Source: Hydrogenophaga sp. | GTDB lineage: Bacteria > Pseudomonadota > Gammaproteobacteria > Burkholderiales > Burkholderiaceae_C | Direction: 5' to 3' | Assembly (NCBI RefSeq): GCF_022844385.1 | Contig: NZ_JALHLX010000015.1 | Location: 1 to 52,421 of the forward strand | DNA: 52,421 bases | Part shown: positions 2,630 to 38,613 of the stretch, piece after piece | Position numbering within the stretch: position 1 is the first letter of the stretch | Layout of the letters: every line of letters starts with the position of its first letter | Translations under genes and position numbers: made by a program | Notes under the pieces: generated by a model | Database searches by the model: none | Seen by the model: the letters and a program-made list of their open reading frames with translations, nothing else | Told to the model about the DNA's origin: nothing

Positions 2630-3135
2630 TTGTTCACGAGCGAGCCCGGGAACGGCTCGACGTTTGGCATCTGTTTCCTCGCACAGGCGCCATCGGCGAC
2701 GGGGGCGATCAAGCAACGGAGGGGCCTTCAGGACAGCACAAGAGTTTGAAGACATTGTTGATTGTTGATGAGGTGGCTCTTCTACGTGCCTTGGGCAAAA
2801 TTCTGGAAGGCGAAGGCCATCGGGCAACTTCTGCCGGAGGCGGCCAGGAGGGGTTGGATCTGTTCAAGGCGAGTTTGAAAGCGGGTGGCTAGGACGCGGT
2901 CATCACAGATCTCGGCATGCCCCGGGTTGATGGGAATGCGGTGGCCACGGGGGTGAAGGACATGTCGACCAACACGCCCGTGATCATGTTGACCGGGTGG
3001 GGGCGACGCATGCAGGAGGACGCTGTCCTGCCTGCCGGCGTTGACCACTTGCTTGGCAAGCCTGCGCGCATCGCTGCATTGCGAGAGGCTCTGGCAAGTT
3101 GCATGACGGGGGGATTCAAGAAAGGCATTGGTTGA
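2630..3135 (+). pseudogene. Remnant of a second histidine kinase C-terminus plus response regulator, interrupted by an amber codon
   Basis: Two pieces of a decayed two-component pair. From about 2630 one frame reads SEPGNGSTFGICFL, the typical end of an HATPase domain. In another frame from about 2731-2746 a receiver domain begins with LLIVDEVALL and continues to the phosphorylation region ITDLGMPRVDGN, then IMLTGWG and a lysine in LLGKPARI, ending at 3135. The receiver is cut by an in-frame TAG at 2890-2892, six codons before the candidate phospho-Asp. The acidic pair that normally follows IVD is also degraded (DEV). The usual 120-residue receiver length is otherwise preserved. It reads as a relic of a gene pair similar to, but distinct from, the intact kinase just upstream. 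A read-through product cannot be excluded but is unlikely to be active. Confidence 0.75.
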
Positions 3136-3225
3136 ACCACCTACTGCCTTGTTGATCAGAGCCGAATAATGGTCATCAATCCCAGTCCGACCTGGGCTCT
3201 GGTGCTCACATTTGATGGTGTTTTT

Positions 3226-3634
3226 TTACTGCATAACCATGAAATTTTCAGTTCCTGAGAACGAGTCAGGGCTCATAAACACCGCGATGCTACGTGCACC
3301 GGTACCTCTGGTCCGATCAAACGCCCATTCGAGGGGGAGGCTTCCGAAAGGAAGCATATTGATCTGTTCGAGCCTGAGGTCGGTGAGATTTTGGTCGGCA
3401 TTGATGTCAAACATCGGTCCGCCGAGAAGGTAGCGGCCATCCTCCGTGATGTAGACAATCCGGCCATCAATTGCAGCTTCGAGCACGCCCGGAATCCGTG
3501 TCTTCGAGATAGCTTGGGTCAAAACTGTTCGGGAACACCCGAAGCAGCGTCGCGCGCAAAGCAGCTTCATCTCCGGTGGCAGCAGCCACAGCTGCTACGG
3601 ACACTATTGCCAGAAACAAAATCAAGCGCTTCAC
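3226..3634 (-). pseudogene. dsbC: Frameshifted and truncated dsbC (periplasmic disulfide isomerase)
   Basis: On the minus strand a GTG at 3634 is preceded by a clear AAGGAG. It opens a signal-peptide-like start (MKRLILFLAIVSVAAVAAA if initiated as Met) followed by DEAALRATLLRVFPNS, as at the start of mature DsbC/DsbG proteins. This frame ends soon after. The match then continues in a second frame with ISKTRIPGVLEA, GRIVYITEDGRYLLGG, FDINADQNLTD and LPFGSLPLEWAF, the DsbC dimerisation domain. The frameshift lies around 3520-3535. The protein then breaks off after SIAVFMSPD and reads into unrelated sequence to a stop at 3226, so the thioredoxin domain with its CXXC active site is gone. Known DsbC proteins are about 230-260 residues; only about 120 remain. 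It is non-functional as a disulfide isomerase. Confidence 0.8.
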
Positions 3635-3788
3635 GGGCTACTCCTTCAGGTCCGAGGCGAGCCCTCGCCAATGCGCGACTTAAACGCACCGAAGTAGCGG
3701 CGGAGTGGCGTCTCGCCGTTGCTGGGAGCTGGCAGGTTCTTGAACACAGACCTTGAGGCCCAAAAGGGCTCGCACACCGTAACTACAT

Positions 3789-3831
3789 CGACACGACTGG
3801 CTGTCTAGATAGGCGCCAGCCAGTCGTGTCG
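3789..3831. repeat. Perfect 15-bp inverted repeat with 13-bp spacer
   Basis: Left arm CGACACGACTGGCTG (3789-3803) and right arm CAGCCAGTCGTGTCG (3817-3831) are exact reverse complements around 13 bases. There is no T tract on either side, so it is not a normal intrinsic terminator. It could be a recombination site, a protein-binding palindrome or a mobile-element end. Confidence 0.75.
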
Positions 3832-3859
3832 CACCGGACCGATCCAGCCTGGTTGCTAG

Positions 3860-3889
3860 CCCCGTCGTGTGCTTCTTTGAGCGACGGGG
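3860..3889. repeat. 8-bp inverted repeat CCCCGTCG/CGACGGGG
   Basis: The left arm is at 3860-3867 and the right arm at 3882-3889, with a 14-base spacer. It lies 29 bases after the 15-bp inverted repeat, so two hairpins stand side by side in an otherwise empty region. The function is unknown. Confidence 0.6.
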
Positions 3890-4178
3890 TAACAAGTGGG
3901 CTTCGCCGTCATCGGGGATTCGCTTTTTGCTGGGCGGACAAACTTGAGGAGCAATACTCTCGGCGGCAGGATATCGTCAGATGGTTCCGAGCGGGGGCAC
4001 CTACCTGAAGTTCCCGCCCCCACTCGATCCGATAGCTATTTGCGAAGCGAAGTTGGCAAGTGATGGTTGTTGCTGCTGGAACTGGCGCCGAACCAGCTTC
4101 GCCGCCTGCCTCAGCGGTCGAGTTCACCAGCAGGCCTGACGATTTGACGCTCGCATCACCGCGAAATACCATGTCGTC

Positions 4179-5081
4179 ATGGCACAGCATCCGCTTCGAA
4201 TCGCGATTCTGTCTTTGGCCCTTCTCACGCCAACCATCGCGTTCGCCACCCAACCCGTCACACTGACACATTCCTACGGCTTGGTATACAGCGCCGATGG
4301 CAGGCAATTGATCATCACCAGTGACCAGGGGCTGGCCATCCACTCTGGTGGGAGGTGGTCGACCGCTGCAGGGGCTGCGCATGAGTTCAAGAGCCTCGCC
4401 GCCTCGCGTGATGCGCTGATCAGCAGCGGCCATCCTGCGCCTGAATCTAACATTGCCGATCCGATGGGACTGATCAAGAGCACGGACGGAGGAAAGACGT
4501 GGCGCAAGCTCGGGCTGCACGGCGAGTCAGACTTCCACACGTTGGCTGCGAGCCTCAGGGTCAATGTTGTATACGCGTCCAATCGCCAGCCGAATTCAAG
4601 GATGGGGAGGACAGGCATCCACTACACGCTTGACAACGGTGTTCGCTGGCGTCGAGCGGAGGCAAAAGGCTTGGGAGGGCCGATCCATCAGCTGGCTGCT
4701 CACCCTTCCGATCCGAGAATGGTTGCCGCTGCGAGCGATGCGGGGCTCTATTTCTCGCGTAACCATGCTGACACGTTTCATCGCCTCGGCGATCCTGGTT
4801 TCGTGCTCGCGGTCAGCTTCGATGTTGATGGGGAGCACGTGTGGTTCAGCGGCTATTCTGCGGAGAAACCGTCGCTCAGGAGGATTCGATTGACCAGCGG
4901 TGCCACTGCCGATGACGTCGCGCTTCCGCTCGAAGACGATGACGCAGTGGCCCGTATCGCACAAAACCCTGTGCGTTCTACAGAAATCGCCATCGCTACA
5001 TTCAAGCGCAACGTGTTTGTCAGTCACGACCTGGGGAAGACGTGGGTACAGATTGCTTTTGCAGGGACCACGACCAGGTGA
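4179..5081 (+). CDS. Exported BNR/sialidase-like beta-propeller protein (F510_1955 glycosylhydrolase-like family)
   Basis: 300 residues with a clear signal peptide (ILSLALLTPTIAFA, cleavage near residue 23), so periplasmic or secreted. The body carries repeated propeller blades with Asp-box-like motifs: KSTDGGKTWRKLG, HYTLDNGVRWRRA and SHDLGKTWVQIA. Family members of this length are annotated as F510_1955-type glycosylhydrolases and often occur in metal-resistance neighbourhoods. Hydrolase activity is not demonstrated and I see no sialidase catalytic arginine triad. The start at 4179 is chosen because it begins the signal peptide; an ATG at 4171 is out of frame. The gene looks intact although its upstream neighbour dsbC is broken. 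It may act in periplasmic handling of metals or proteins, but this is a context guess. Confidence 0.75.
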   Translation: MAQHPLRIAILSLALLTPTIAFATQPVTLTHSYGLVYSADGRQLIITSDQGLAIHSGGRWSTAAGAAHEFKSLAASRDALISSGHPAPESNIADPMGLIKSTDGGKTWRKLGLHGESDFHTLAASLRVNVVYASNRQPNSRMGRTGIHYTLDNGVRWRRAEAKGLGGPIHQLAAHPSDPRMVAAASDAGLYFSRNHADTFHRLGDPGFVLAVSFDVDGEHVWFSGYSAEKPSLRRIRLTSGATADDVALPLEDDDAVARIAQNPVRSTEIAIATFKRNVFVSHDLGKTWVQIAFAGTTTR

Positions 5082-6913: not shown

Positions 6914-7889
6914 CTATCGAAGGTTCTTTCGGTAGCTTCGCTTCATGAGCAAAGAGTTGCCAATCACGGACAAAGAGCTGGCTGTCATCGCAATGACACC
7001 AATCATGGGGTGCAACAGGCCGGCGGCAGCAATGGGGATGGCGATGATGTTGTAACCACTGGCCCACAGCAGGTTTTGCACGATCTTGCTGAACGTGGCC
7101 CGCGACAGCTGCATGGCTTCGACCACCCCGGTCAGTTCGCCGCGCACCAGCGTGACATCTGCCGCTTCAATGGCCACATCGGCGCCGGCGCCAATGGCAA
7201 TGCCCACATTGGCCTGTTTCAAGGCGGGGGCGTCGTTGATGCCATCGCCCACCATGGCCACGTGATTGCCGTACTTTTCCTGCAAGGCGCGAATGGCGTC
7301 GACCTTGCCCTCGGGCAGTACGCCAGCCTGCACTTCATCAATACCGACCTCTGCCGCCACCGCCTGCGCTGCGCGCTGGTTGTCGCCGGTCACCATCACC
7401 ACATGCAGGCCCAGCGCATGCATGGCCTTGATGGCGGCTACAGACTCCTCCTTGATGGTGTCAGCCACTGCAACAATGCCCAGTACCTGATGGTTTTCTG
7501 CCACTAGCACGGCTGTGCGCCCCTTTTCCTCCAACCCGGCAAGCGCTTCCTTCAACGCTTCCAGCCCTTCCACACCGGCCTCATCCAGCAGACGGTAGTT
7601 GCCAATCAGCACTTTCCTGTTGTCGGCGACACCTGACACGCCACGTGCGCCGGTGGATTGAAATTCAGTGACTTCCAAGGGGTCTATCCCTTGGGCGCGG
7701 GCACCGTCCACAATCGCGCGGGCAATCGGGTGTTCAGAGGCGTTTTCAATGCTGGCAGCCATCAGCAGCAAATGTGCTTCATCCACACCGGTCGCCGCTA
7801 CCACTTCAGTCATCTTCGGCTCGCCCTTGGTGATCGTGCCGGTTTTGTCCAGCACCATGACCTTGATGTCCTTAAAAGTCTGAATCGCC
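6914..7889 (-). pseudogene. copA: 3' half of a copper-translocating P-type ATPase gene split by an IS66-family element
   Basis: C-terminal part of CopA: phosphorylation motif DKTGTIT (Asp449 in the restored numbering), SEHP of the nucleotide-binding domain, TGDN, the hinge GDGINDAP, and the last two membrane helices with the YN and MxxSS features of Cu(I)-ATPases. The first in-frame ATG on this fragment is at 7858. The frame extends upstream through IQTFKDIKV to the 8-bp duplication at 7882-7889, where the mobile element begins. The 5' half lies at 12359-13670, and joining the two at the duplication restores the frame exactly. Alone, the fragment lacks the transmembrane copper site CPC and the actuator domain. 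If translated it could yield a soluble ATP-binding domain plus two helices, not a pump. Confidence 0.92.
7882..7889. repeat. 8-bp target-site duplication, left copy (GAATCGCC)
   Basis: Identical to 12359-12366. Eight-base duplications are typical of IS66-family transposition. The copies directly abut the terminal inverted repeats of the element. Confidence 0.93.
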
Positions 7890-7915
7890 GTAAGCGCGCG
7901 GCGATCCCATCTTGA
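7890..7915. repeat. Left terminal inverted repeat of the IS66-family element
   Basis: Begins GTAAGCGCGCGGCGATCCCA and runs to CTTGA. It matches the right end at positions 1-8, 10-13, 15-20 and 22. The GTAA tip is characteristic of IS66-family ends. Confidence 0.9.
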
Positions 7916-7965
7916 TCGCAGGGCGCAAGGTTGTTTCCCAGAATGCGTTGTGTGGCTGACCGCTC

Positions 7966-8052
7966 CCGGTGCGGTACCAGTTCGCCAAGCTGGCCGGCGC
8001 CCTGCATATGCAGACGCTCCATCAAATCGGTCAGGGGACAGTCATCCCAAGC
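7966..8052 (-). pseudogene. Relic of an IS66 tnpC 3' end
   Basis: Read on the minus strand this gives LTDLMERLHMQGAGQLGELVPHR. It aligns with the last 25 or so residues of the intact TnpC in the same element (LRDVMARLPMQRASQIGELLPFR, near residues 480-502). Only the C-terminal tail survives; no stop follows at the expected place, and upstream sequence is unrelated. It occupies the position expected for a tnpC end next to the left inverted repeat, so it is probably what is left of a second, diverged IS66 copy. Nucleotide identity to the intact copy is clearly below 100 percent, so it is not a recent duplication. Confidence 0.75.
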
Positions 8053-8163
8053 TGACGGAGGCGACCGGCCGTTTAGCGATGTGCTTGCCAAGCGTTTACT
8101 TTCGACCATCCGTACTGGAACCATATGAGTTGAAAAAACGGTTCAATTCTCGATATGCCCACC

Positions 8164-8190
8164 TAAAGTTCGAGCTTAGGATGTCGAAAT
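8164..8190 (+). promoter_or_regulatory. Sigma-28 (FliA)-like promoter upstream of the MCP gene
   Basis: TAAAGTTC (8164-8171), an 11-base spacer, then GTCGAAAT (8183-8190). The FliA consensus is TAAAGTTT-N11-GCCGATAA, so the -35 matches at 7 of 8 positions and the -10 at 5 of 8, with exact spacing. Transcription would start near 8200, about 90 bases before the MCP start codon. Confidence 0.65.
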
Positions 8191-8290
8191 GTTACAAGTC
8201 GTCATATTACGACCGCGTCGACCCGGTGCGCTGGCCAGTTGAAGAGTTGAATGGCCGTATCGACTCGACACATGTTCTAAGGAAGCAGAC

Positions 8291-9844
8291 ATGTTCAACG
8301 ATCTCAAGATTTCCACCCGTCTGGTGGGTGCGTTCACTTTGCTTGTATTCATGCTCCTGGCAATCGGTGCACTCAGCGTTATGCGCACCATGGCGGTGCA
8401 AACCGACCTGGTTGACATCACAGAGCGCCGTATGAAGGTAATCGCCGATATGGAGTTGGTGCGAAATGAAACCAACTTGCAGGCCCGCGCGATCCGCAAC
8501 ATCGCTCTTCTTGCCGACCCGACCAAGGTTGCCCAAGAAAAACAATCCATCGCAGACTCGCGGGTAGCCGTGGACAAAATGACTGCCGAGCTTGATTCTT
8601 TGGTCATCTCTACCAAAAGCAAAGAAATTCAGGCTCAACTGGGACAGGCTCGAAAACCTTTTGACGACTCTGTGGACAGGTTTATTGCCCTGATCGACAG
8701 GAACGAACGGGATCCCGCCATCGCCCTTTTGTTCGAAACCGTGCGACCCTTGCAATTGACCTACATGAATGCGATTGATGAAGCGGTGAGCTATGAAGCC
8801 GCGGGCGCACAGGCCGCTAGCCAGTCGGCGCAGAGCGTAGTGAAGAACCTCATCATTACCATCGTGTCAGCCGTGCTTCTCACAGCCCTGGCCGCGGCGG
8901 TAGTAGCGGCTTGGATCATCCGCTCCATCACTGGCCCCATCAACAGTGCCGTTGAACTTGCACGCGCTGTGGCCGCGGGTGACCTCACCCGTGTGGTCGA
9001 CGTGAAGTCAAAAAACGAAACTGGCCTATTGATGCAAGCCCTCGCAGATATGCAGACTGGACTTGTGCAGGTGGTGGGTCGCGTGCGCAGTGGCTCTGAA
9101 TCCGTGTCCAGTGCAAGCGAACAAATAGCGCAGGGTAATCAGGACCTGAGCTCACGTACCGAAAGCCAGGCCAGCGCGCTGGAACAAACCGCTGCCTCGA
9201 TGGAAGAACTGTCCTCCACCGTGCGCCAGAACGCCGACAACGCTGCCCAGGCCAACCAGCTCGCCCAGAGCGCATCGCGCGTGGCAGTGGAAGGCGGTCA
9301 GGTCGTCAGCCAGGTGGTGGACACCATGAAGGGCATCAACGAGAGCTCGCGCAAGATCAGCGACATCATCAGCGTGATCGACGGCATTGCATTCCAGACC
9401 AACATCCTCGCGCTCAACGCCGCAGTGGAAGCGGCCCGCGCTGGCGAACAGGGCCGTGGCTTTGCGGTGGTGGCTGGCGAGGTGCGTAACCTGGCACAGC
9501 GCAGTGCTGCCGCCGCCAAGGAAATCAAGCAGCTCATCAATGACAGCGTGGAGCGCGTGGAGAGCGGCACCGCGCTGGTCGACAAGGCCGGCACCACCAT
9601 GAACGAGGTGGTGGACAGCGTGCGCCGCGTGACCGACATCATGGGTGAGATCAGCTCGGCCAGCAAAGAACAGAGCGACGGTGTGGGCCAGATCGGCGAA
9701 GCCGTGACCCAGATGGACCAGGCCACTCAGCAGAACGCCGCCTTGGTAGAGGAAATGGCGGCAGCAGCCAGCAGTCTACGTACACAGGCCACCGACCTAG
9801 TGACCTCGGTTGCAGTGTTTCGCCTATCCAGCCACGCGGCGTAA
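8291..9844 (+). CDS. Methyl-accepting chemotaxis protein carried inside the IS66-family element
   Basis: 517-residue chemoreceptor. An N-terminal helix (about 11-32) and a second one (about 186-209) bracket a roughly 150-residue periplasmic domain of the four-helix-bundle type, followed by a HAMP linker (about 210-262) and a long signalling coiled coil. The kinase-control tip is canonical: [20 protein letters not shown] and [19 protein letters not shown] (about 368-406). Flanking methylation helices are present (for example [19 protein letters not shown] near 293-311). There is no C-terminal CheR/CheB docking pentapeptide; the protein ends SSHAA. The start is supported by AAGGA about 9 bases upstream of the ATG at 8291. 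The gene lies inside the mobile element, opposite in direction to the transposase genes, and looks intact. Ligand unknown; the sensor has no Cys/His/Met cluster suggesting copper. Confidence 0.93.
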
Positions 9845-10013
9845 TCCTGCTGTGTTCTTCATCAACCTGCCGTAGCGCACCTTCACAAACACGGAACTCC
9901 GTTTGATCGTACGTCAAGCCGACCCATCTTGGACATGACGGGTGTTGATGGAAAGGCACGCAACCAACCCATCTTGACTGCGTGACATGGTCAACTTCGA
10001 TTTGGTGGTGCGG
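9845..10013. other. Junction between MCP and tnpC with end-like CCCATCTTG repeats
   Basis: This 169-base spacer has CCCATCTTG at 9923-9931 and CCCATCTTGA at 9968-9977, the same block that occupies positions 17-26 of the left terminal repeat (7906-7915). The 45 or so bases after the second copy loosely follow those after the left inverted repeat. It may be the decayed internal end of the intact IS66 copy or accessory transposase binding sites. Confidence 0.5.
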
Positions 10014-11534
10014 TTAGACCGGGTGCCAGCGAAACGGCAACAGCTCGCCGATCTGGCTGGCGCGCTGCATGGGCAGACGTGCCATCACATCGCGCAGATA
10101 GGCGTAGGGGTCATGCCCGTTCATGCGCGCTGACTGGATCAGGCTCATGACGGCTGCCGCCCGCTGGCCAGCGCGCAGGCTGCCAGCGAAGAGCCAGTTG
10201 TTACGGCCAATGGCAATGGGCCGGATCTGGTTCTCGATCCAGTTGTTGTCCACGGGCAGTTGCCCGTCACCGACGAACCGCGTCAACGCTTCCCAGCGCC
10301 GCAAGCTGTAGTCCAGCGCCTTGGCGCTCGCCGAACCTTCGGGCACCTTCTGACGTTGCAGCACCATCCACCGGTGCAAGGTATCGAGCAGCGGCTTCGT
10401 TTGCTGTTGCCGGGTGGCTTGGCGCTGATCGGCGCTGAGCTCCTTGACCTCACGCTCGATCTCGTAGACCCGACCGAACTGCTGCAGCGCGAACTCGGCG
10501 ATCTGGCTTTGATTGGCCGCGTGCAGATCGAAGAACTTGCGCCGCGCGTGCGCCAGGCAGCCAACCTCGGTCACGCCATTGGCGATCAAGGCCTTGTAGC
10601 CACTGAAGTCGTCACATGTGAGGCTGCCCCTCCAGTCCCCCAGGAAGCGCCGAGCATGTTCGCCCGAGCGCGATTCACAGAAGTCGTAGACGACCAGCTT
10701 GGTGTTCTCGAAGGCACCCGTGGCGTAAGCCCAGAGGTAGGCGCGGTGCGTCTTGCCATTGCCCGGTTTGAGCATGGACACCGGCGTCTCGTCGGCATGC
10801 AGCACGCGGTGCTGCAGCAGCTCGTTTCTCATGGCATCCACCAGCGGCTGCAACTGCACGCCGCAGGAGCCCACCCATTGAGCGAGTGTGGAGCGCGGGA
10901 TCGCCAAACCGGCGCGGCCGAAGATCGCTTCCTGGCGGTACAGCGGCAGGTGGTCCGCGTACTTTGCCACCAGCACCTGCGCCAGCAGCCCGGTGGTGGG
11001 GATGCCTTTGTCGATGACGTGAGGATCGACGGGGACTTGGGTGAGCGTCTCGCACTTCGCGCATGCCCACTTGCCCCGGATATGGCGCTCGACACTGAAC
11101 ACACCGGGTACATAGTCCAGCTTCTCGGCCACGTCCTCGCCCACGCGTTTCATCTGGCAGCCGCACTGGCACAGGGTGGACTCAGGCTCGTGGCGGATCT
11201 CGCGCCGCGGCAGGTTGGCCGGCAGCGGCGCGCGCTTCGGCGCCTTCTTCTCTTCCAGCTTGGCTGGTGCCTGCGCTTCCTGCAGCGCATCGATCTCCGT
11301 GGCCACGGCCGCCAGGTCGGCCTCGATCTCGTCTTCGAGCAGGCTCTTCTGTTCGGGGTTGAAGCGTTCGGATTGGGCCGCGAACTTCATGCGCTTCAAG
11401 AGCGCGTTCTCGTGCGTGAGTTTGTCCAGCAGCGCGCTCTGGTGGCGCAGCTGCGCCATGAGGCGCGTGGTCAGCTCACGCAGCTCTTCTGCGCACAGGC
11501 TCTGCAGGGATTGAGGCTCGACCACCATGGACAT
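10014..11534 (-). CDS. tnpC: IS66-family transposase TnpC (DDE)
   Basis: Complete 506-residue IS66 transposase, which catalyses strand transfer. N-terminal leucine-zipper-like helix (about 20-85), a zinc-finger-like Cys set (C122, C124, C126, C158, C161), then the DDE domain: HADET with Asp248, TCDDFSGYK with Asp308/309, and DNNWIENQIRP with Glu434. The IS66 C-terminal tail MARLPMQRASQIGELLPFRW follows. Start MSMVVEP at 11534, with a second Met at 11528. It lies 75 bases downstream of tnpB and reads in the same direction. There is no frameshift or stop, so the element may still be mobile. The length and motifs match the family. Confidence 0.95.
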   Translation of the reverse strand: MSMVVEPQSLQSLCAEELRELTTRLMAQLRHQSALLDKLTHENALLKRMKFAAQSERFNPEQKSLLEDEIEADLAAVATEIDALQEAQAPAKLEEKKAPKRAPLPANLPRREIRHEPESTLCQCGCQMKRVGEDVAEKLDYVPGVFSVERHIRGKWACAKCETLTQVPVDPHVIDKGIPTTGLLAQVLVAKYADHLPLYRQEAIFGRAGLAIPRSTLAQWVGSCGVQLQPLVDAMRNELLQHRVLHADETPVSMLKPGNGKTHRAYLWAYATGAFENTKLVVYDFCESRSGEHARRFLGDWRGSLTCDDFSGYKALIANGVTEVGCLAHARRKFFDLHAANQSQIAEFALQQFGRVYEIEREVKELSADQRQATRQQQTKPLLDTLHRWMVLQRQKVPEGSASAKALDYSLRRWEALTRFVGDGQLPVDNNWIENQIRPIAIGRNNWLFAGSLRAGQRAAAVMSLIQSARMNGHDPYAYLRDVMARLPMQRASQIGELLPFRWHPV

Positions 11535-11609
11535 TCACTGTGCCAGCACTGGAATGTGCGCACCATTGGCGCATGCCCCAATTGGCAAGCACCGGTCTGC
11601 GCTTCAGAG

Positions 11610-11942
11610 TCAGACCACGGTGATGACACCACCGTCGCCAAGGCGCTGCCAGGGCAGGCCCAGCACCAGCGCATCGAACTGTGCGCGGGTGAGCGCGGCG
11701 GTGATTGCAGTATCACGCGGCCAGACGAACTTGCCGCTGTTGAGGCGCCGCGCTGCCAGCCACACACCGATTCCGTCGTGCACCAGCACCTTCATGCGGG
11801 TGGCTCTTCTGTTGGCGAACAGGTAGGCGTGGTGCGGTCGCGCCGCGCCGAAGACCGACACCACGCGAGCCAGCGCCGTCTCGGTGCCCGCTCTCATGTC
11901 CAGCGGCTCAGTGGCCAGCCACAGCGCATCAACCCGGATCAC
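11610..11942 (-). CDS. tnpB: IS66-family accessory protein TnpB
   Basis: 110 residues, the IS66 Orf2 type needed for transposition in characterised members, with unknown biochemical role. The family core is seen as PLDMRAGTETALARVV, HHAYLFANRRATRMKVLVHD, GIGVWLAARRLNSGKFVWP and the end LGLPWQRLG. The start is the GTG at 11942, which overlaps the tnpA stop as GTGA, a normal translational-coupling arrangement in IS66 elements. Longer upstream readings in this frame are only shadow of tnpA. Confidence 0.9.
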   Translation of the reverse strand: MIRVDALWLATEPLDMRAGTETALARVVSVFGAARPHHAYLFANRRATRMKVLVHDGIGVWLAARRLNSGKFVWPRDTAITAALTRAQFDALVLGLPWQRLGDGGVITVV

Positions 11943-12286
11943 TTGAGCAGCTCTCGCAACCACACGGCGCACTGATCGGCCGCATCCAAGGGCCAGGTCA
12001 CCGAGACGGTGGTGGCGCCACGGCACAGCTCGATGCGGATGTCCGGTGCAGGTGCGCACGCCGCGGGCGGCAGCGACACCTGAACGAATGCGGGCGCCTC
12101 CAGTGCAGGCAGCACGCTGCCATCTTGGCGGCGCCACTTGTGCACGACGTTGGCGTTGATGCCGTGCGACAGGGCAATGCCGGCCACCGAAGCGCCTGGC
12201 TCGGCGCACTCGGCAAGGATCTGCTGCTTGAGCTCGGCGCCGTACCTCCGGCGGGTCTTCTTCTTGGCTTCATTCATGGTGTCCAC
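11939..12286 (-). CDS. tnpA: IS66-family accessory protein TnpA (HTH)
   Basis: Small helix-turn-helix protein (115 residues from GTG 12286, 112 from ATG 12277). The N-terminal half has the IS3/IS66 OrfA-like HTH: RYGAELKQQILAECAEPG, SVAGIALSHGINANVVHKWRRQ. Its start lies inside a perfect 12-bp inverted repeat (12276-12308), which could act as an operator or sequester the start. The 3' end overlaps tnpB. First gene of the tnpABC transcription unit. Confidence 0.92.
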   Translation of the reverse strand: MDTMNEAKKKTRRRYGAELKQQILAECAEPGASVAGIALSHGINANVVHKWRRQDGSVLPALEAPAFVQVSLPPAACAPAPDIRIELCRGATTVSVTWPLDAADQCAVWLRELLK

Positions 12287-12308
12287 CTATTTGCTTGGTG
12301 GACACCAT
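12276..12308. repeat. Perfect 12-bp inverted repeat spanning the tnpA start
   Basis: Arms ATGGTGTCCACC (12276-12287) and GGTGGACACCAT (12297-12308) around a 9-base loop. In the minus-strand transcript the hairpin would include both possible tnpA start codons. It could limit transposase translation or bind a repressor dimer. Confidence 0.8.
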
Positions 12309-12331
12309 CGTTGCCGCTTAGACCAATCCCT

Positions 12332-12358
12332 TCAAGGGTGGGATGGCCGTGCGCTTAC
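12332..12358. repeat. Right terminal inverted repeat of the IS66-family element
   Basis: Reading inward from 12358 on the minus strand it begins GTAAGCGCACGGCCATCCCA and continues CCCTTGA. It mirrors the left end with mismatches at positions 9, 14 and 21 of the first 22. Confidence 0.9.
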
Positions 12359-12366
12359 GAATCGCC
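12359..12366. repeat. 8-bp target-site duplication, right copy (GAATCGCC)
   Basis: Identical to 7882-7889. It lies within the codons for Glu-Ala-Ile of copA. Confidence 0.93.
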
Positions 12367-13670
12367 TCACCGGAGCGGATCAGAATGCCGCGCTCTGCGC
12401 CAATGCCGGAGCCCACCATCAGTGCCGTGGGCGTTGCCAGTCCCAGTGCGCAGGGGCAGGCGATGACCAGCACGGCGATCGCGGCCAGTATGGCCAATAC
12501 GCCAGTGTCTGCAGCCGGATTGACCCAGGGCAAAAAGCCGGAACCCCAGACCAGAATCGGTCTCAGGTTTTCACCGAACAGCAGCCACGCGAAAAGGCTC
12601 GCCAAGGAAATCAGAATCACCACCGGCACAAAACGACCCGTCATGCGATCAGCGAATTCCTGAATGGGAACGCGAGAACCTTGTGCCTGGTCAATCAAGC
12701 GGATCACCTGAGAGAGAAACGTATCACTGCCGACCCGTGACGCTCTGACCCGCAACCGTCCTTCCTTGTTGATGGTTGCACCAATGACCGCATCACCCTT
12801 GGCTTTGAATACCGGCACCGACTCGCCGGTCGCCAGCGATTCATCCACATGGCTCTCACCATCGATCACTTCGCCATCAGTGGGGATCTTGTCGCCGGGT
12901 CGCAGCACCATCACATCGCCAGGCTGCAGCTCCTTCACGGGGATTTCAATTTCAGCACCCTCACGTTCAATCCGAGCGGTCTTGGCACCCAGGGTCAACA
13001 AACGGCGAATGGCTTCAGATGCACGGCCCTTGGCCTTGGCCTCCAGAAAACGGCCCAGCAGATGAAACGTGGTGATCGTGGCGGCCATTTCAACAAAGGA
13101 CGTCATGGGGTAGACAAAACCAGCCAGGCCGATCAGATACGGCGGGATGCTTCCCAACGAGATCAACACATCCATGTTGAACGTTCGATTTTTCAATGAA
13201 CGCCACGAGGCCCGGTGCGTTGCTGCACCGCCATAGAGAAACACCACAGGAAATGCCAGCAGCACCACGATGGCCAGGTATCCAGGCACAGGCTGCCAGA
13301 ACATATGGGGGACCATCAGCAACATGATCAGCGTGGTGGGCACACCCGCGATCCACAAACGTTGGCGTGCCTGAGACAGGTAGTTCTGCTCTGCCACTGT
13401 CTCTGCTTCGCCGTCCGAATCCTGCGCCTGTGAAACCGATGCCACCTCGTAGCCCGCGCCTTCTACCGCGCTCCGCAGCGCATTGGCATCCGGACCGCCA
13501 TTGGAAGTGCTCACGTTCACGCGATGGTTGGCGATGTTGGTGGTGATTTCAGCAATTCCATCCAGCCGCTGCAAAGTGGTCCGGATGATCCCGGCGCAAT
13601 GGTCTGAACCCATGCCCGGGACGATCAGTTCGGTGATTGAACCCGTTGTAGCGGTTGTTTCATTGGTCAT
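12359..13670 (-). pseudogene. copA: 5' half of the split copA (copper P-type ATPase)
   Basis: Encodes residues 1-437 of CopA before the IS66 junction; the open frame runs a further 13 codons into the element and stops at 12318. An N-terminal HMA metal-binding domain (about 12-80) is followed by four membrane helices (about 105-124, 131-149, 166-187, 190-210), the actuator domain with TGES (281-284), then two more helices with the transport-site motif CPC (405-407) in VIACPCALGLATP. The HMA motif is GMGSDHC (Ser22/Cys25) rather than the normal GMxCxxC, so it has one Cys only. The start ATG at 13670 has AGAGG upstream. Last gene of the minus-strand copper cluster. Phosphorylation and nucleotide-binding domains are on the other side of the insertion, so no export activity is expected. 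Confidence 0.92.
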
Positions 13671-28329: not shown

Positions 28330-29946
<1,617 letters not shown>

Positions 29947-36861: not shown

Positions 36862-38613
36862 TCAGTCTGTCATCAACGCCGCTGGGTCTTCCGCCGCCAG
36901 CACCGTCTGCGCCCAGGTCTGCAAGCGCGTCGTGTCGCAACGCAGGATCTGCTGCTTGACCGCCAGAATCTGCGACGGATGCATGGAGAAGCTGCGCAAG
37001 CCCAGGCCAAGCAACAAACGCGTCATGGCCACATCCCCCGCCATCTCGCCACACACGCTCACCCCTTTGCCCTGCGCCTGGCATTGCGTGATGGTGTTGG
37101 CGAGAAGGTGCAGCACCGCGGGATGCACCGGGTCGTAAAGGTGCGAGACAGCCTCGTCGGCACGGTCAATCGCCAGCGTGTACTGGATCAGGTCGTTGGT
37201 GCCGATGGAGAGAAAGTCGAAGTGTTTGAGGAACAGCGGAATGGTGAGCGCGGCGGCGGGCACTTCGATCATGGCGCCCAGCTTGACCGCGCCCTGTCGA
37301 ACGCCAGCGGCTTCCAGCTGCTCGCGCGCGCGATTGATCAAGGCCAGCGTCTGACGGATCTCGCTGGCGTGTGCGAGCATGGGAACGAGCAGGTTCACAG
37401 GCCCGTGCGCGGCGGCTCGCAGTATGGCTCGCAACTGCGCCAGGAACATCGCCGGGTCGGCCAGACTCCAGCGGATTGCGCGCAGGCCCAGGGCAGGATT
37501 GAGGTGGTCTTCGCCGGCGCGCTGGGCCACACGGTCCAGCGGTTTGTCAGCGCCCACGTCCACCGTGCGGATGGTCACCGGCAGGCCTTGCATGCCCTCG
37601 ACCGCGCGCTTGTAGGCCTGGTACTGCTCTTCCTCGTCGGGCAGTTTGCCGTTGCGACCCATGAAGAGGAATTCGCTGCGGAACAGCCCCACACCCACGG
37701 CACCGGCCTTGAGCGCGCCCACCGCGTCTTCGGGTTGTTCGATGTTGGCCAGCAGCTCGATCTTCTGCCCGTCAAGCGTGACGGCGGGAGTGTTCTTCAG
37801 GCGTGAGAGTCGTTCACGCTCCACCTCACCCTGGCGCTGCTTGAAGCCGTATTCGGCCAGCAGGATGGGCGAAGGATCGATCACCACCACGCCGGCATCG
37901 CCGTCGATGATGACCCAGTCATCCTGCTCGATCAGCTGGCTGGCCGAGCGAGCGCCGACCACCGCCGGGATGTCCATGCTGCGCGCGACGATGGCGGTGT
38001 GGCTGGTCTTGCCGCCCACGTCGGTGACGAAACCGGCAAACACGCTTTGCTTGAACTGCAACATGTCGGCCGGCGACAGGTCGTGTGCGATCAGCACCAG
38101 CGGCACGTCGACGGCGTTGTCCTGCCCGGGGTGGGGCTGACCGCTGACCACCGGCGAGGACACGCCGCGCATCACGCGCAGGATGCGCTCAACCACCTGC
38201 TCCAGGTCGGCCTTGCGCTCGCGCAGGTAGGGATCTTCCATCTCGTCAAACTGGCGCGCGATCACCTCCAGCTGGGTGGTCAGCGCCCATTCGGCGTTGT
38301 AGTGCCGCTCGACGATCCAGTGCTTCACGCCATTGGTGAGCTGCTCGTCCTGCAGCAGCATGAGGTGCACATCGAGCAAGGCCGTGAGCTCGGGATGGGC
38401 GTCCGAGGGCCCCAGGTCGTGCAGGCTTTGCTGCACCTTCAGAATCTCCGCCGCCACCTCGTTGCGCGCATGGCGCAGCCGTTCGATTTCGCCCACGACC
38501 TGTTCGGTCTGCACGAAGTAGTGGGCCACGTCGACCCGGCTCGACGCCACGATCACCGCCCGCCCGATGGCAATGCCCCGGGAGACGGCGAGACCGTGGA
38601 CGGAGAAGCTCAT
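36862..38613 (-). CDS. ptsI: Phosphoenolpyruvate-protein phosphotransferase (PTS enzyme I)
   Basis: 583 residues, full length. Takes phosphate from PEP onto His205 in GGKTSHTAIVARSMDIPAVVG and passes it to HPr. The PEP-binding barrel is indicated by GLFRSEFLFMGR, RTVDVGADKPL, NPALGLRAIRWSL and GTNDLIQYTLAIDR, with the active Cys in SVCGEMAGD. It overlaps ptsH by four bases. No EIIB/EIIC gene is present, so the local cascade is probably regulatory. Confidence 0.96.
   Translation of the reverse strand: MSFSVHGLAVSRGIAIGRAVIVASSRVDVAHYFVQTEQVVGEIERLRHARNEVAAEILKVQQSLHDLGPSDAHPELTALLDVHLMLLQDEQLTNGVKHWIVERHYNAEWALTTQLEVIARQFDEMEDPYLRERKADLEQVVERILRVMRGVSSPVVSGQPHPGQDNAVDVPLVLIAHDLSPADMLQFKQSVFAGFVTDVGGKTSHTAIVARSMDIPAVVGARSASQLIEQDDWVIIDGDAGVVVIDPSPILLAEYGFKQRQGEVERERLSRLKNTPAVTLDGQKIELLANIEQPEDAVGALKAGAVGVGLFRSEFLFMGRNGKLPDEEEQYQAYKRAVEGMQGLPVTIRTVDVGADKPLDRVAQRAGEDHLNPALGLRAIRWSLADPAMFLAQLRAILRAAAHGPVNLLVPMLAHASEIRQTLALINRAREQLEAAGVRQGAVKLGAMIEVPAAALTIPLFLKHFDFLSIGTNDLIQYTLAIDRADEAVSHLYDPVHPAVLHLLANTITQCQAQGKGVSVCGEMAGDVAMTRLLLGLGLRSFSMHPSQILAVKQQILRCDTTRLQTWAQTVLAAEDPAALMTD

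Follow-up and report, generated by a model that had tools for sequence, protein, structure and literature searches.

IS66-family insertion sequences (ISs) that carry passenger genes, known as tIS66, have already been described. In the accessible part of PMC12888890, the example is ISPa75 with its fosZ passenger; an origin of ISPa75-fosZ from two IS66 relatives is proposed, and 7 of 25 Pseudomonas IS66 elements in ISfinder have passengers. Genes for methyl-accepting chemotaxis proteins (MCPs) have likewise been placed in transposons: in the available excerpts, Tn1722 carries mcp (PMC7096625), mcp is named in Tn1721 (PMC5241659), and an mcpT-2 gene is named in a legend among the transposon-holding structures of several plasmids (PMC7765201). 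Three further papers, in the portions available, name IS66 only in IS-family counts or lists (PMC6020299, PMC12429562 and PMC6956133). Here we describe a locus that joins the two ideas. Within a 52,421-nucleotide stretch of Hydrogenophaga sp. DNA (contig NZ_JALHLX010000015.1, hereafter the window), an IS66-family unit of 4469 bp encloses an MCP gene. From its sequence, we consider it very likely that this unit transposes as one piece and that it would add a receptor to the chemotaxis system of its host.

The insert (7890-12358) splits a minus-strand metal P-type ATPase gene at 7882-12366; the gene name copA is taken from an earlier reading of the sequence. Both outer ends start with GTAAGCGC, forming GTAA-type terminal inverted repeats. 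An ungapped comparison of their first 27 nucleotides gives 20 matches, and the 21-nt end arms (7889-7909 versus 12339-12359) are 90% complementary. Directly outside each end stands a perfect 8-bp duplication, GAATCGCC. Once the insert and one octamer are taken out, the flanks form a single open ATPase frame of 759 codons. G453, a genome of the same genus, has an uninterrupted ATPase gene with a single GAATCGCC and 92% identity on each side; this empty site holds neither MCP nor IS66. The gene also runs through the insertion site in two more distant relatives (L155 and L156). From these uninterrupted genes, and from the single octamer in G453, we conclude that the GAATCGCC repeat is a target duplication and not ancestral. 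A first-pass annotation of the window had named two observations that would speak against its proposal: an MCP at the same place without IS ends in related strains, and octamer repeats ancestral to the uninterrupted copA. Neither was seen, as none of the three relatives with a readable site (L154, L155 and L156) has an MCP there and L154 has its octamer once. The proposal itself, an IS66-family unit whose outer inverted repeats and perfect 8-bp duplications enclose tnpA, tnpB, tnpC and a complete MCP gene, agrees with the ends, octamers and domains found here (Table 1). All three transposition genes, including a tnpC of the DDE_Tnp_IS66 type, have Pfam domains, and the MCP has its 4HB ligand-binding, HAMP and MCPsignal domains in an unbroken frame.

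The annotation also held that the unit, MCP included, had moved as one, and it suggested a search for further copies with the same ends, the same MCP and a different 8-bp duplication. One such copy was found. The ligand-binding domain of the MCP is present at E <= 1e-40 in 11 of 67 genus genomes, counting the host genome, G000; in G406, which belongs to another species of the genus, this domain is 100% identical to that of the window MCP. The whole unit is there on two contigs (C90:7477-10192, equal to element positions 1-2716, and C91:6768-8529, equal to 2708-4469). It has the same ends as in the window, different neighbouring DNA and CGAGGATG on both outer sides. Two sites with two duplications thus support movement of the unit together with its MCP. 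Over 7890-10184, the first 2295 bp and the entire MCP, the two copies have no mismatches, and over 10597-12358 they have two. Around fliA, by comparison, 2009 bp of a 3500-bp query align between G000 and G406, at 76% identity. Near-identical copies despite a 76% identical fliA locus point to recent movement of the unit between species.

The remaining differences are local. All 22 mismatches found between the copies over 7890-10605 fall in 10185-10389 of tnpC, a cluster that suggests recombination with another IS66 copy. The split of the G406 unit across contigs is due to another insertion inside tnpC (L143, which is G406:C90, 10193-10731, and L149, on G406:C91). This insertion is bounded by inverted ends, TTATGTTGCGGCCCGAGATATGTGG, and the overlap measures 9 bp (element 2708-2716). 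From its raw sequence, we presume that it may contain tyrosine recombinases of a RIT-like kind.

How could a single set of IS66 genes move a receptor gene lying beside it? The first-pass annotation correctly placed tnpA/B/C and the MCP inside the unit, but the inner structure is less simple than it supposed, because a second IS66 left-end remnant and a decayed internal left end had been missed. The remnant (7890-8029, about 140 bp) lies beyond the MCP and consists of an intact end followed by a tnpC-end-like stretch. Positions 7972-8029 and 10035-10092 are identical at 46 of 58 bases (79%; E 6e-11 when only these two short stretches are compared). On the other side of the MCP, the left end proper to the complete IS66 has decayed. 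The left end of L018, a relative, reads GTAAGCGCACGGCCATCCCATCTTGA and lies about 60 bp past the tnpC region that it has in common with the window; at the corresponding position (9950-9977) the window reads GGAAAGGCACGCAACCAACCCATCTTGA, with three of the eight terminal bases changed and an indel. The octamer of this internal end occurs in none of 90 duplication-flanked ends gathered from 43 loci by a loosened scan (admitting at most 3 altered bases among the first 8 and 12 among all 26). The decayed end itself (15/26, ungapped) fails even that scan, and the original end filter would also exclude it.

In the simplest history, which we propose here, the MCP once lay between two IS66 copies, of which one has since been reduced to its left end while the other has lost the left end that it had. 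With the left end beside the MCP decayed, TnpA, TnpB and TnpC would act on the outermost ends, the only pair left to the transposase, and the 140-bp remnant beyond the MCP would supply the left end instead. If that remnant serves as an end, the receptor could travel only with the transposase. The decayed internal end and the second left end beyond the MCP together mean that the unit should move whole.

Table 1. Features of the MCP-bearing IS66 unit and of the ATPase gene that it splits (window coordinates)
Feature	Position	Strand	Remarks
P-type ATPase gene, 3' part (interrupted)	6914-7889	-	HAD-type Hydrolase domain
Left target duplication copy, GAATCGCC	7882-7889	.	
Outer left inverted repeat, GTAAGCGCGCGGCGATCCCATCTTGA	7890-7915	+	identical bases in G406 copy
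Decayed remnant of second IS66 tnpC 3' end	7916-8029	-	aligned part 7972-8029
Predicted FliA (sigma-28) promoter, TAAA-N15-GTCGAAAT	8164-8190	+	127 nt before MCP start
MCP passenger, 517 aa	8291-9844	+	4HB_MCP_1, HAMP, MCPsignal; no C-terminal pentapeptide
Decayed internal left end of full IS66, starts GGAAAGGC	9950-9977	+	
tnpC, IS66 DDE transposase, 506 aa	10014-11534	-	PF03050 E 8e-105; PF13817, PF13007, PF13005
tnpB accessory protein, GTG start inferred	11610-11942	-	PF05717 TnpB_IS66 E 2.1e-26
tnpA, 115 aa	11939-12286	-	HTH_Tnp_1
Outer right inverted repeat, GTAAGCGCACGGCCATCCCACCCTTGA read inward	12332-12358	-	
Right target duplication copy, GAATCGCC	12359-12366	.	
P-type ATPase gene, 5' part (interrupted)	12367-13670	-	HMA and E1-E2_ATPase domains

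With its passenger beyond tnpC and within the outer ends, the unit has the tIS66 arrangement, and its length lies outside the typical IS66 range of about 2.4-2.6 kb. So far as PMC12888890 could be consulted, ISPa75-fosZ resembles it in having IS66 tnpA, tnpB and tnpC, a passenger beyond the DDE transposase gene, a left end of the GTAAGCG type, several different target duplications across its hosts and a proposed derivation of its ends from two IS66 relatives. It differs in carrying a resistance gene rather than a chemoreceptor and in measuring 2996 bp rather than 4469 bp; the far-end tnpC remnant and the decayed internal end set the window unit apart from it. Tn1722 and Tn1721, as the accessible text describes them, share with the window unit an MCP gene inside a transposon. 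Those are Tn3-family transposons with tnpA, tnpR and res, whereas the window unit combines genes of the IS66 type with GTAA ends and a duplication of 8 bp. The transposition genes between its ends are all of the IS66 type, unlike a Tn1722-like Tn3-family element, although no search was aimed at res.

The lineage to which the unit belongs carries other cargo. Among 268 TnpC relatives in named genomes, we examined the best 80 for end pairs with matching octamers, allowing one mismatch; the ends were sought by the GTAAGCGC-type motif, so these loci are no independent test of GTAA ends. Octamer-flanked end pairs were found in 39 loci. The other 41 had no octamer-matched pair, and many of them were cut by contig ends. 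Lengths were counted in 38 of the 39 (L094, with two end pairs, was left out): 25 measured 2222-2600 bp and 13 were longer, at 2863-7867 bp. A 4066-bp sibling occupies six loci, each with an octamer of its own (L060, L061, L063, L066, L067 and L088), and its cargo, the genes having been read in L061 only, comprises a MerR-type regulator and a cation efflux protein. Its hosts are two Acidovorax, a Stenotrophomonas, a Castellaniella, a Hydrogenophaga and a betaproteobacterium, and this metal-cargo sibling is widely travelled.

Mercury-resistance genes take the place of the MCP in another sibling, 3798 bp long in all three of its loci. On a plasmid of Diaphorobacter sp. HDW4A (L011, 3550-7347) it has a perfect duplication, ACCCTGGG, and contains annotated merT and merP, a merR-like frame and a GDCCVxC protein. 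L044, also with a perfect 8-bp duplication, encodes MerR, MerT and an HMA-domain MerP-like protein. L012, in G360, has no matching duplication. The IS66 DNA of L011 and L012 is 92% identical to that of the window (91.9% over the IS66 region of L011), and the cargo lies in the same slot; the distal end is different. In others of the longer units, the genes beyond tnpC encode a NUDIX protein (L049), a methyltransferase (L052) and a PRiA4_ORF3 protein (L055), and the extra frames in L045 and L073 match no Pfam family. We also noted a 7867-bp IS66 unit at L112 (5092-12958, duplication AGTAGTTG), one extra frame of which looks LysR-type-like by eye. A basal relative, L041 from Hydrogenophaga MAG_35, has a TnpC 96% identical to the window's, the same end type and an 8-bp duplication, but at 2418 bp it has no room for cargo, and its left end is intact. 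Judged from the best four or fewer candidates per genome, at least 18 of the 66 genomes of the genus contain the IS66 core itself (E <= 1e-100). Given the different genes beyond tnpC in sibling units, the MCP is, by gene content, one of several cargoes in one slot.

The receptor appears close to genus-bound in its ligand-binding domain. No other receptor with this domain occurs in G000 at E <= 1e-40. Judged from the best seven or fewer candidates per genome, the domain reaches that threshold in at least 6 of 399 family genomes, G000 included; outside the genus, at least 4 of 394 family genomes do so, with identities of 37-40%. At E <= 1e-50, at least 2 of 399 order genomes have it, again counting G000. 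Perhaps the tail of the MCP was cut when the gene was captured? The C-terminal pentapeptide, a tether for CheR and CheB, is an optional feature of MCPs. A tree was built from 46 of 57 proteins, the 57 having been found among the best candidates of a longer list. In it the window MCP groups with P0019, P0020 and P0022, all of which are without linker and pentapeptide; the support of 94/92 is just under the tool's 95/80 mark. The truncation idea was set aside because these three grouped proteins are short as well, and their grouping indicates that loss of the pentapeptide probably predates capture.

Expression of the receptor is predicted to follow that of flagellar genes. The closest chromosomal orthologue (L125) has a site like the one in Table 1, TAAA-N15-GTCGATAG, 134 nt before its start, and FliA-like sites stand upstream of most of eight orthologues. 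For eight upstream regions, among them that of the window, the best site scores added up to 70, against 58.6 +- 2.0 for shuffled sequences, a sum attained in 0 of 1000 shuffles. This set omits L137-L140, in which the start pattern was missed, and L132, which is the same gene as the window's. The host (3.90 Mb in 237 contigs, 94% complete) has a FliA match above the cut-off and five CheW-domain frames, one of which, at 728 codons, is of CheA size. We predict that the MCP would be transcribed from its own FliA-type promoter together with flagellar genes and would join resident CheA/CheW arrays.

Several observations count against this account of a mobile, working receptor. The MCP is without the linker and WESF-type C-terminal pentapeptide seen in 31 of 45 relatives. 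The window promoter site, taken alone, lacks significance, as its score was reached in 112 of 1000 shuffles, or 207 with looser spacing. Two of the eight orthologues have no convincing FliA site (L133, 758/1000; L141, 234/1000), and five of seven other host MCP loci, with predicted starts, have no site scoring 9 or more. FliA control of the MCP is thus a prediction, as the site is weak alone and two orthologues and most host MCP loci are without one. As for mobility, the copies found number only two. The G406 copy is on two contigs with the other insertion in tnpC, so that its continuity rests on the matching octamer; it also has the 22 mismatches clustered at 10185-10389. The divergence of G000 and G406 is known from one locus only, the fliA region.

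Might the MCP then be a neutral hitchhiker, in a unit that moves while the receptor is silent or signals to no useful end, its spread independent of taxis? The missing pentapeptide, the weakness of the promoter site on its own, the want of an assigned ligand and the mere two copies would fit such a history. However, the two species share an identical MCP frame with every domain intact, the orthologues jointly show a FliA-like site, and the three tree neighbours of the MCP are likewise without the pentapeptide. We regard the hitchhiker explanation as rather unlikely.

The left-end remnant beyond the MCP and the interrupted tnpC of G406 could also be taken as signs of a composite transposon, in which two flanking IS66 copies moved the MCP and left behind a relic now unable to move on its own. 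A composite transposon has two complete IS copies flanking its cargo; here, the left side is only about 140 bp, and the copy there has no transposase gene. Moreover, the outer ends on both sides match the ends of siblings flanked by duplications, all three transposition genes of the window unit retain their domains, and the near-identity of the two copies indicates a recent split. A relic of this kind is improbable. A resident MCP with IS66 inserted beside it, or homologous recombination with coincidental octamers, can be given next to no credence: no point in its support was found, chance octamers are excluded by the empty site and by the second copy with its own duplication, and prior residence of the MCP is excluded by the relatives' empty site, with neither MCP nor IS66 in G453.

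Movement of the unit as a whole by its own IS66 genes is thus the explanation that we favour. A wider proposal is more tentative: that this is a taxis transposon, a self-contained IS66 unit moving a flagellar-regulated chemoreceptor across species, and that the slot in its lineage is an exchangeable cargo bay. We consider this possible, if somewhat short of probable.

Other IS66-MCP units were also sought. No MCP lies inside the element at any of the 80 TnpC loci, about half of which are not duplication-bounded; the lone MCP match, at L108, is outside the element. Across 399 family genomes, among the matches listed (the best one or two candidates per genome), the window's own is the sole one to reach across both MCP and IS66. 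At the 11 other orthologue loci (L125 and L133-L142), flanks of up to about 1.5 kb contain neither an IS66 gene nor an IS66 end. Plasmids gave 29 matching records, none covering 80% of the unit, and no match to its left 411 bp. Phages gave no match, and a scan of viral contigs gave two partial MCP matches; the protein cluster of the window MCP is listed with eight contigs. A separate plasmid MCP, in Sphingobium sp. JS3065 (L122, 4377-5798), adjoins nag aromatic-degradation genes near IS21 and IS1071 genes. The window itself encodes an ATP synthase alpha/beta-type subunit (28330-29946), a PEP-utilising, PTS EI-like enzyme (36862-38613) and ribosomal protein L2 (49325-50149), which suggests that it is chromosomal.

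The open-licence literature that we searched, judged mostly from listings, describes no MCP within an IS66 element, nor do the accessible portions of PMC12888890, PMC7371123, PMC11092175, PMC7765201, PMC5241659 and PMC7096625. The first-pass annotation knew of no described IS66 element of this kind. That statement needs narrowing, as passenger-bearing IS66 elements and transposon-borne mcp genes are each known; an MCP in IS66, however, appears to be new. With tIS66 passengers and the mcp of Tn1721 and Tn1722 already on record, neither idea is new alone. It is their union that appears new, in the form of an IS66-family unit that carries a chemoreceptor and has inserted at two sites, one in each of two species.

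Closely related bacteria have widely different sets of chemoreceptors, and the turnover of these sets has mostly been inferred from trees. Here a receptor gene has apparently been caught moving, as an identical MCP at two sites in two species, on an element the size of an insertion sequence. If the unit is indeed a taxis transposon, a single transposition could equip a bacterium with a new sense for finding direction. Its spread may bring new taxis behaviour, as the first-pass annotation proposed, and would give its hosts a new swimming response. If the slot beyond tnpC is a cargo bay, metal resistance, regulators, enzymes and a sensor would be exchangeable within it. These findings suggest that IS66 elements may carry exchangeable cargo beyond resistance genes.

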